A stretch of DNA of 64,000 nt from Runella rosea (GTDB lineage Bacteria > Bacteroidota > Bacteroidia > Cytophagales > Spirosomataceae), in NCBI RefSeq assembly GCF_003325355.1, contig NZ_CP030850.1:868001-932000 (forward strand). Reading direction: 5' to 3'. This document shows positions 50,695-52,780 of the stretch, in pieces. Each line of letters opens with the position of its first letter. Positions within the stretch are counted from its first letter, which is position 1. The notes under the pieces were generated by a model. That model did not search any database, was not told the origin of the DNA, and saw nothing but the letters and a program-made list of their open reading frames with translations. A program made the position numbers and the translations under genes.

Positions 50695-51522
50695 TTAAAG
50701 AATGCTTTGTCTAATTTTCAATTCGCTTTGGTGATACACCTGCGAAAACGCGGGTACGCTTGTCGTCAGCCATGCATTTCCACCGATGATAGAATCATTG
50801 CCAATGACCGTTTTGCCGCCCAAAATGGTGGCGTTAGCGTATATAACTACGTTGTCTTCAATGGTAGGATGACGTTTGGTTTCGGCCATTGACTTAGAAA
50901 CACTCAATGCACCAAGCGTCACGCCTTGATATACTTTCACGTTATTACCGATATCGGTCGTTTCACCAATCACGACGCCCGTTCCGTGGTCAATGAAAAA
51001 CGATTGTCCGATATTTGCTTTAGGGTGAATATCTATCCCTGTCAGTCCATGAGCATGTTCGGTAAGCATTCTTGGCAGCAAAGGCACGTTCAAATCCACT
51101 AATAAATGGGCCACCCTATATACGGCAATGGCATAAAAACCTGGGTAGACAGAAATCACCTCCTCAATGCCCACCGAAGCGGGGTCATTGTCCGCAATTG
51201 CCTGAGCATCAAGCAAAAGATTTTCATAAATCTCGGGCAATTTGGCCAGAAATCGGTCCATAATGGCGTCTTTATCAGCGTCAAGATGATTGGAAAGCGG
51301 GTCCAAAAGGCAAGACAAACGGTTTTGAAGACGGCGATAGGCTTCGGGCAAATCCAATGAAGTTCGTTCGCAATCCTGTGTAACGGGAAACAGAAAACAC
51401 ATCATTTCTTCCACAAACTTCCCAACGCTGCTGCGGGGAGGCAATCGATGCCGATACTTGGCATTTTGCTCGGTAAGACGCGTTAAAAAGGAGACCGAAA
51501 TTTCTTGCTCAGTTAATGTCAT
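50695..51522 (-). CDS. cysE: Serine O-acetyltransferase
   Basis: CysE acetylates serine to O-acetylserine, the committed step of cysteine synthesis. From ATG 51522 it has 275 residues. An N-terminal helical part precedes the left-handed beta-helix: [39 protein letters not shown] and [18 protein letters not shown]. The catalytic His/Asp pair is in [10 protein letters not shown]. The in-frame extension to 51651 is rejected because it runs through the leader peptide, attenuator hairpin and untranslated spacer described in the next entries. The organism seems to control the gene by cysteine-dependent attenuation. Confidence 0.95.
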
Positions 51523-51539
51523 GGCATTGATTGGATTAC

Positions 51540-51612
51540 AAAATAAAAGCCCTTTCTTCTGGAAAGGGCGGCTCAATTTCTTAGTTTTGAAGCGTAAATC
51601 ATTCCCTTTCCA
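51540..51612 (-). promoter_or_regulatory. cysE transcription attenuator (terminator/antiterminator)
   Basis: On the minus strand segment 2 is TGGAAAGGG (plus coordinates 51604-51612), segment 3 CCCTTTCCA (51560-51568) and segment 4 GAAAGGGC (51549-51556). Segments 2 and 3 pair perfectly over 9 bp (antiterminator). Segments 3 and 4 form an 8-bp stem (GCCCTTTC/GAAAGGGC) with the 5-nt loop CAGAA, followed by TTTTATTTT (51548-51540), which is an intrinsic terminator. Because segment 3 cannot pair both ways, the structures are exclusive. The hairpin ends about 27 nt before the cysE ATG. A ribosome on the leader stop codon would cover segment 2. Confidence 0.8.
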
Positions 51613-51616
51613 TGTA

Positions 51617-51664
51617 TTAGTCACGGATACAGCAACAACAAACAGCGGCACGTTTGGTTTTCAC
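51617..51664 (-). CDS. cysE leader peptide with four Cys codons
   Basis: A GTG-initiated frame of 15 codons plus TAA reads [15 protein letters not shown]. Codons 9-12 are TGT TGT TGC TGT (51640-51629). The basic-hydrophobic start and the run of the pathway's end product are typical of amino-acid attenuator leaders. The stop codon is 4 nt from segment 2 of the attenuator, so a ribosome that terminates normally would sequester segment 2 and leave the terminator to form, while one stalled at the Cys run would leave it free. No Shine-Dalgarno is seen, as usual in this group. It is too short for automated ORF calls. Confidence 0.8.
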
Positions 51665-51686
51665 AGGAATGATTTTTATAATTTTG
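51653..51686 (+). promoter_or_regulatory. Promoter of the apbE-like gene
   Basis: TTTG (51653-51656), 22 nt, then TAATTTTG (51679-51686), an exact TAnnTTTG. The leader to the ATG at 51764 is about 70 nt. The -33 element lies on the opposite strand of the first codons of the cysE leader peptide. Confidence 0.5.
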
Positions 51687-51763
51687 ATACCAAAAACCGT
51701 GCAAAAAGGTTCATTATTTCTAAAAAAGTTACCATTTATTTGCGGATTGCGCAATTCCACCAA

Positions 51764-52780
51764 ATGATGATTTATAAATTTAAAGTACACTACACTCGGG
51801 TTATTCTCCAGTACATATTCTTTTTTTGTATTTTGTCTCTCTGTACTACCCTCTCAGGCCATGCCCAAAATCGGTATTCTTACGCATGGAATGCAATGGG
51901 TTCGGAATTCAATCTAGTTTTTTACGCCCCTCATGACTCCATCGCAAAAGTGGCCTCCGATAGCGTTTTTAAACGCATTGAGTACCTGAATTCAATCTTA
52001 AGCGATTACTTAGATGGCAGCGAAACCAATCGTTTATCAGCAACGGCTGGTTCGGGAGAAGCTTTTTTTGCGGGTCAAATTCTCTTTGATATTCTTCAGC
52101 AATCAGTTCATTACAGTAAACAAACCAAGGGCACTTTTGATGTGAGCGTCGGGCCGATTGTTCAACTCTGGCGGCGCGCCTTACGGCGTAATTATTTCCC
52201 CGACAGCGCCCAAATTCAGGAAGCCAAACAAACCGTTGGGTACAAAAAAATCCGTTTAAATGCTAAAAATAGTACAGTGATACTTACCCAAAAAGGGATG
52301 CGTCTCGATTTTGGCGGTATCGGAAAAGGCTACGCGGCCGATGATGCCATACGCATATTACGCTATTTTGGCATTTCTGCCGCTTTTTTGGATGCTGGCG
52401 GGGACTTGACCCTTGGCGACGCCCCTCCTCAAAAAAAGGGTTGGGAGATTGAAGTAAGTTCGGGAGGGAAAGACAGTACGGCAAAGCGTGTGTTGACGCT
52501 TAAAAATTGCGGGGTGGCCACTTCTGGAAATACCTACCGTTTTATGGAACATAAAGGGATTAAATATTCCCACATCGTAGATCCTCGCACGGGCGTTGGG
52601 CTCACCACCCATACACGCACCACGGTCATTGCTCACAACGGAACCGCGGCCGATGCCCTCGCCACGGCGTTTAGCGTGTTAGGAATAAAAGAAGGCAAAA
52701 AAGTGGCTAAAAAATTAAAGTCTGTTCGAATTTGGCTCTTGGAACAAAACGGACTTGAATGGAAAACGGCTAATTTTTAG
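51764..52780 (+). CDS. FAD:protein FMN transferase (ApbE family)
   Basis: This encodes 338 residues from the ATG at 51764 (or the adjacent 51767), with a signal peptide RVILQYIFFFCILSLCTTLS and GHAQ. The mature protein shows ApbE landmarks: AMGSEFNLVFYA, FDVSVGPIVQLWR, LDFGGIGKGYAADDA, DAGGDLTLGD, GVATSGNTYRF and HIVDPRTGVGL, and AADALATAFSVLG with a Mg2+-binding Asp/Ser. The enzyme is periplasmic and attaches FMN to threonine of flavoproteins such as NqrB/C or FrdA. No substrate gene is in the window. The upstream in-frame extension to 51458 is rejected since it runs antisense through the cysE leader. Confidence 0.93.
   Translation: MMIYKFKVHYTRVILQYIFFFCILSLCTTLSGHAQNRYSYAWNAMGSEFNLVFYAPHDSIAKVASDSVFKRIEYLNSILSDYLDGSETNRLSATAGSGEAFFAGQILFDILQQSVHYSKQTKGTFDVSVGPIVQLWRRALRRNYFPDSAQIQEAKQTVGYKKIRLNAKNSTVILTQKGMRLDFGGIGKGYAADDAIRILRYFGISAAFLDAGGDLTLGDAPPQKKGWEIEVSSGGKDSTAKRVLTLKNCGVATSGNTYRFMEHKGIKYSHIVDPRTGVGLTTHTRTTVIAHNGTAADALATAFSVLGIKEGKKVAKKLKSVRIWLLEQNGLEWKTANF

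Follow-up and report, generated by a model that had tools for sequence, protein, structure and literature searches.

A predicted ribosome-mediated cysteine attenuator upstream of cysE in Runella rosea, with probable counterparts in other Bacteroidota

The trp, his, leu and ilv operons are governed by ribosome-mediated attenuators, in which a leader containing cognate codons is combined with a 1:2 hairpin, a 2:3 antiterminator and a 3:4 terminator. The DNA analyzed here, a stretch of 64,000 nucleotides from Runella rosea (the window), carries on its minus strand a leader of similar design, with a run of cognate codons, a 1:2 hairpin around the stop codon, a candidate 2:3 pairing and a 3:4 stem ahead of a biosynthetic gene. 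It differs from the classical attenuators in the amino acid (cysteine), the gene (cysE) and the host (a member of the Bacteroidota), and also in that its GTG or ATG start codons lack an obvious Shine-Dalgarno site when inspected by eye. The use of Shine-Dalgarno sites is weak in Bacteroidota. We consider it highly probable, from sequence comparison, that the predicted element is a ribosome-mediated transcription attenuator coupling cysE transcription to the charging of tRNA-Cys. A sequence-only reading of the window had named this class of mechanism, and in this it was very probably right.

Leader peptides with cysteine were described at cys and cbs operons of Mycobacterium, Propionibacterium and Bifidobacterium, where no conserved terminator hairpin was found (PMC1262725). 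Control by the actinobacterial and mycobacterial Cys leaders is described as possibly Rho-dependent or translational. The cysE leader resembles those in being a short ORF that lies ahead of a cysteine gene and has a run of Cys codons close to its stop; it is unlike them in having an intrinsic terminator with a candidate antiterminator and in the gene being cysE. Thus, among the mycobacterial-type traits, the run of Cys codons in a short upstream ORF is present, and the absence of a terminator hairpin is not matched. Polycysteine short ORFs upstream of cysteine genes in mycobacteria are reportedly the subject of a 2020 study by Canestrari.

Within the same phylum, leader-peptide attenuation was noted for amino-acid operons of Flavobacterium psychrophilum, for which the same general mechanism was proposed; the accessible part of that paper names no cysteine leader (PMC9723704). 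A search of open-licence literature, a body that most subscription papers fall outside, found no cysteine attenuator of Bacteroidota and so did not contradict the earlier remark that this arrangement was undescribed for cysE in the phylum. Cysteine sensing in Bacteroidota appears to be poorly known. What the present comparisons appear to add is a 1:2 hairpin that covaries, evidence that the leader is conserved in most of Runella and naturally absent from three of its genomes, its recurrence ahead of cysE or cysE-cysK/M elsewhere in the phylum, and a leucine control.

The gene downstream of the leader, cysE (50695..51522, minus strand), encodes a putative serine O-acetyltransferase of 275 aa with matches to TIGR01172, NF041874 and Hexapep. 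The match to TIGR01172 (E 6e-47, 159.6 bits) falls under the cut-off of 210.65, and that to EPS_EpsC NF041874 (151.2 bits) is barely above the cut-off of 150. By its sequence the protein is classed as a serine acetyltransferase of the cysE/EpsC type. The divergent neighbor of cysE is apbE, and no Cys leader was found upstream of cysM in the same genome, even allowing two Cys. An N-terminal extension of cysE was considered and rejected, since in seven of ten Runella relatives the cysE frame does not stay open as far upstream.

As the sequence-only reading had described, a 15-codon frame with four adjacent Cys codons precedes the acetyltransferase gene; it is read on the minus strand. This leader ORF (51617..51664) runs from a GTG at 51664 to a TAA ending at 51617, and ATG stands at the aligned start position in L014, L015 and L017. 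The Cys codons, TGT TGT TGC TGT (51629..51640), are the proposed sensor codons. Segment 2, TGGAAAGGG (51604..51612), begins 4 nt past the leader stop and is complementary over 9 bp to segment 3, CCCTTTCCA (51560..51568); these are the two arms of the candidate antiterminator. The first seven bases of segment 3 also lie within the 5' arm of the predicted terminator, GCCCTTTC-CAGAA-GAAAGGGC (segments 3 and 4; 51549..51569; −11.6 kcal/mol), which consists of an 8-bp stem and a 5-nt loop followed by the T tract TTTTATTTT (51540..51548). Both the 9-bp partner 4 nt beyond the stop and the 8-bp stem that shares segment 3 and leads into the T tract are therefore present in the sequence, as had been claimed. 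A further helix, which the earlier reading did not notice and which is newly recognized here, is the 1:2 hairpin formed in the fold of the window and supported by the alignment, with segment 1, TCCGTG (51622..51627), as its 5' arm and CATGGA (51609..51614), overlapping segment 2, as its 3' arm. The cysE ATG is at 51522, 17 nt past the T tract and outside the stem. Upstream, a promoter-like block, GAACCTTTTTGCACGGTTTTTGGTAT (51687..51712, minus strand), is conserved throughout Runella; its 21-nt core has one mismatch-free match in the genome. It ends 22 nt ahead of the leader GTG, a distance to be set beside the leaderless start of mycobacterial-type polycysteine ORFs, in which the start codon is the first codon of the mRNA. 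The block is nearly invariant in Runella, and similar blocks occur in other genera.

From these features we infer leader translation, a transcription start, termination and a response to cysteine, in the following form. RNA polymerase would transcribe the leader with a ribosome following. With ample Cys-tRNA, the ribosome would pass the four Cys codons and reach the stop in the loop of the 1:2 hairpin, where its front edge would cover part of segment 2, freeing segment 3 for segment 4; the 3:4 pairing would then end transcription at the T tract before cysE. When Cys-tRNA is scarce, the ribosome would stall on the Cys run and block the 1:2 hairpin, segment 2 would be free for segment 3, and the polymerase would continue into cysE. 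If no ribosome were present, 1:2 and 3:4 would form together and transcription would end.

All 13 genomes of the genus that were searched, including R. limosa, R. zeae, Runella sp. CRIBMP and others, have cysE, and the leader was found in ten. In each of these ten leaders the stop ends 12 nt after the last Cys codon of its run and is 43–47 nt from the terminator, and a T-tailed stem is present. Eight of them start with GTG or ATG at the aligned place, and the other two (L020 and L021) have an ATG a few codons further upstream. The Cys run is CCCC or CCCCC, and the residues before and after it vary. The remaining three genomes (L016, L018, L019) have neither leader nor terminator; the promoter-like block is close to the cysE start in L018 and L019, and L016 has a near copy of it there. 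A covariance model of the leader gave no match in the two of these three genomes that were searched. Run against 121 genomes of the family, the model recovered the cysE leader in 8 of the 10 genus genomes included; no other match had an E below 0.001, and the seven further matches that were read (E 0.001–0.018) resemble ordinary terminators, one lying behind a Leu leader at the leuA of G041, an Arsenicibacter.

Three helices were scored on the alignment of the ten Runella sequences, four of which are near-identical and one of which (L014) is a base out of register in the terminator columns. For the 1:2 hairpin, whose structure was taken from the window's own fold and has the stop codon in its loop, 93.1% of the cells are paired, compared to 26–59% for slid versions. 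Changes on both sides were seen in five of its six pairs (1 of 500 shuffles was as high), and its covariation score of 0.589, against 0.190 for shuffles, was reached by none of 500. This covariation is strong but not proof of the predicted hairpin, as related rows may exceed shuffles without structure. For the antiterminator, 84.4% of cells are paired, which is above its slid versions, though 203 of 500 shuffles were as high. The terminator is nearly invariant over the ten sequences and is for that reason uninformative on covariation. Hence, although the leader expected in related genomes is there in most of Runella, the compensatory changes expected in the two named stems are a mixed matter: the terminator hardly varies, and those in the antiterminator do not exceed shuffles.

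The antiterminator shares bases with the terminator, and in the window its 9-bp duplex has an energy of −15.8 kcal/mol, where shuffles average −8.4 (p 0.008). Compared to dinucleotide shuffles, the 2:3 duplex stands out in L010 (p 0.008), L011 (0.008), L012 (0.042), L014 (0.042) and L017 (0.004), and it is weak in some relatives (L013, p 0.19; L015, 0.07; L020, 0.21; L021, 0.31). The total fold energy of the window's leader is unexceptional (z −1.61; 12 of 200 shuffles equally good).

Terminators were assigned by hand for 30 leaders, and 11 of the 30 were folded under a mask ending 12 nt beyond the first base of the A-site codon, as the assumed front edge of the ribosome. Before segment 4 exists, placing the last Cys codon in the A site leaves segment 3 with 7–13 nt of upstream pairing in the 11 leaders, and with the ribosome at the stop this pairing drops to 0–5 nt in ten. 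In the eleventh, L014, 9 nt remain paired at the stop and the energy falls from −17.1 to −11.7 kcal/mol. The modeled folds thus agree, for the time before segment 4 is made, with the prediction of the sequence-only reading that a stalled ribosome favors the antiterminator and a ribosome at the stop favors termination. For a ribosome decoding the last Cys codon, the full-length minimum-energy fold favors the terminator in 10 of the 11, the window being the exception, and for one decoding the first Cys codon the fold of the window favors the terminator too. The antiterminator would therefore have to win kinetically, by co-transcriptional folding. Kinetic, co-transcriptional folding is usual for attenuators.

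Outside Runella, counterparts were found in Larkinella (genus g17), where nine of nine genomes have a CCC or CCCC frame and a T-tailed stem at the aligned place, with exceptions in L084 (CCS) and L038 (a TTG start). Support for the antiterminator is weak to absent in these nine (p 0.05 to 0.99), and the leader frame of L037 and L086 extends across the terminator. In L028 (genus g27) the leader is MKMCCCSNSSKRGGQSTMFPGH followed by a stop codon that abuts the terminator, with a 7-bp antiterminator (p 0.012). A ribosome at that stop would cover the terminator as well, and in the masked folds of L028 the terminator was indeed lost with the ribosome at the stop.

More distantly, among 80 loci, a Cys-rich leader and a terminator were found at cysE in Capnocytophaga sputigena (L127), a Capnocytophaga MAG (L143), a Rikenella-labelled MAG (L137), a Crocinitomicaceae MAG (L151), a Bacteroidia MAG (L145), two uncultured Bacteroidetes (L135 and L140) and a Chloroflexi-labelled MAG (L117). 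The last has a Bacteroidota-like cysE followed by a cysK/M homologue, along with the Cys leader, and is perhaps mis-binned. The CCC frames of L128, L129 and L132 were set aside, being probably chance or antisense readings with no terminator behind them. A class-wide sample gave the leader in 3 of 28 loci (L176, L186, L190), where L176 shares its leader with L135 and is not counted as a further case; nine further new class-wide loci had none. A class-wide TIGR01172 search gave no match above the curated cut-off. One cysE match, G205:C1:2396956-2397369 (L221), lies in an open frame of 257 codons, counting one internal TAG, and that genome carries a Cys leader. Judged from these sequences, the distribution of the leader outside close relatives is patchy.

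In the distant lineages the geometry is different. Segment 2 there falls within the last part of the leader ORF and starts 24–46 nt before the end of the stop, the antiterminator duplex has p of 0.002 to 0.15, and the T-tailed stem has a different sequence. In all eight distant loci (the L117–L151 group) cysE is followed by what looks, on inspection by eye, like an O-acetylserine sulfhydrylase homologue, and the coordinates of cysE and cysK are adjacent at the three class-wide leader loci. The Cys codons of the distant leaders keep their frame across other codons (CCLCFC, CCICC, CCQYCCC) and most of these leaders mix TGT and TGC, which favors codons over an RNA repeat as the thing conserved. 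Between the leaders of L145 and L151 there are four synonymous changes and one non-synonymous. It seems probable that a cysteine-specific attenuator of cysE or cysE-cysK/M is recurrent across Bacteroidota (Cytophagales, Flavobacteriales and a Bacteroidales-labelled genome) in two geometries: in Runella the stop precedes segment 2, and in the distant lineages the leader ORF takes in segment 2 near its end.

The same comparisons bear on translational control, by which slow reading of the Cys run would alter ribosome access to cysE and the stem-loop would be incidental. Short ORFs with Cys codons in M. smegmatis are reported to regulate downstream translation, and a hairpin-like element lies 16–160 nt before cysE in Spirosoma and Fibrella, where the terminator finder gave nothing. 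We nevertheless regard this explanation as improbable for the cysE leader, because a T-tailed stem accompanies all ten Runella leaders and recurs in the distant lineages, and because the cysE start lies clear of the stem. As for the hairpin-like element itself, it reads TTCCTCA-nnn-CGGGG and then about TTCCACTA, was seen in Spirosoma, Fibrella and relatives (L040, L049, L052, L056, L057, L061, L105 and others), often with TGTTG ahead and mostly without a Cys leader or terminator; a loose pattern of it is present in 28 of the 36 regions listed.

How often the arrangement arises by chance at cysE was gauged with 151 non-redundant upstream regions, drawn from 216 oriented loci, using as a rule an ORF with at least three Cys in five codons plus a terminator. 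Cys leader and terminator occurred together in 14 of the 151 (five Runella, L028, L032 and seven distant), against a shuffled mean of 0.03 and one in the reverse complements; the regions are enriched for relatives of the window, and 14 of 151 is not a frequency for the phylum. The Cys leader alone was found in 26 regions, whereas shuffles gave 2.35 and reverse complements 3. The screen misses Capnocytophaga, with two adjacent Cys, and through its stem finder most of Larkinella; because the finder allows a stem to extend into the T tract, it overlooks some terminators, and the screen counts are low as a result. At L190 the screen scored a frame other than the leader named above. Upstream of cysK/M, no Cys leader was seen in 30 scanned regions, a weak control comprising 29 distinct loci and one read on the wrong strand, 13 of them directly behind cysE.

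A further comparison is offered by leuA of the same family. Among 45 genomes with leuA, 30 loci were taken and 29 scanned, and a Leu-rich leader with a terminator was present in 9 of the 29, for example MKPIAQNLILLLLTTS followed by a stop. Upstream of leuA, Leu-rich leaders with terminators were noted at L332 (G041:C134), L337, L338, L345-L348, L356, L358 and L359; the leuA leader of Arsenicibacter itself was missed by the terminator finder. Neither of the two Runella leuA examined had a Leu leader under the rule used. When one rule was applied to every residue, Cys came out on top at cysE (13 of 151; Leu 6) and Leu on top at leuA (9 of 29; Cys 0). From their sequences, the Leu leaders at leuA are a second candidate amino-acid attenuator in the family, and their having the same layout supports cognate sensing. 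Taken as a prediction, classical attenuation, as the sequence-only reading proposed it, is supported by the leader in 10 of 13 Runella genomes, the covarying 1:2 hairpin, the masked folding and these Leu leaders.

The leucine leaders also weigh against an arrest peptide responsive to metal or redox state, in which the nascent CCCC would bind metal or be oxidized and would stall the ribosome independently of tRNA-Cys. Runs of Cys can bind metals. Copper-responsive translational control by a nascent exported protein has been reported (PMC9973294). Against these points, a conserved peptide of the arrest type was not found, residues outside the Cys run varying widely among Runella so that the Cys codons alone are conserved; no signal peptide is apparent by eye, the downstream gene belongs to the cysteine pathway itself, and the same layout is seen with leucine at leuA. 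We give an arrest peptide very little credence.

Within the genome of the window, a run of Cys codons alone means little, as the four-Cys-codon pattern TGYTGYTGYTGY is no commoner than its reversal (39 + 28 matches against 34 + 32). All 67 matches were read, and 69 occurrences were scanned, two neighboring matches falling in two overlapping loci. Of the matches, 26 lie in short frames, and just three of these 26 have any terminator-like stem within 200 nt, two of the three stems being poor and more than 150 nt away. The cysE leader is, by these sequence tests, the sole convincing leader among the runs of four adjacent Cys codons of the genome. No Rfam family matched at gathering score in the window and nothing relevant appeared at E up to 5 in 51450–51850; ten other loci gave tRNA only, and no known Rfam family of T-box or metabolite riboswitch matched in the window or at those ten loci. 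Coincidence, in which the Cys codons are due to chance or belong to an extended cysE product while the stem merely stops read-in transcription, could draw on the lack of enrichment genome-wide and on the cysE frame being open for 138 nt upstream in the window, but it is most unlikely, as seven of the ten Runella leaders have that frame closed at 12–120 nt upstream, as it differs from the frame of the Cys run, and as conservation and recurrence at cysE exceed shuffles.

If ribosome-mediated attenuation is the true account of the cysE leader, it would be an equivalent, for cysteine, of the trp-type attenuators, complete with an intrinsic terminator, and would imply close coupling of transcription and translation in Bacteroidota. 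The leader, of about 125 nt and with predicted states that can be tested by codon changes, would offer a direct assay of this coupling, for which the three leaderless Runella genomes may provide a natural unregulated state for comparison, with the leuA leaders rich in Leu from related genera as a matched control.
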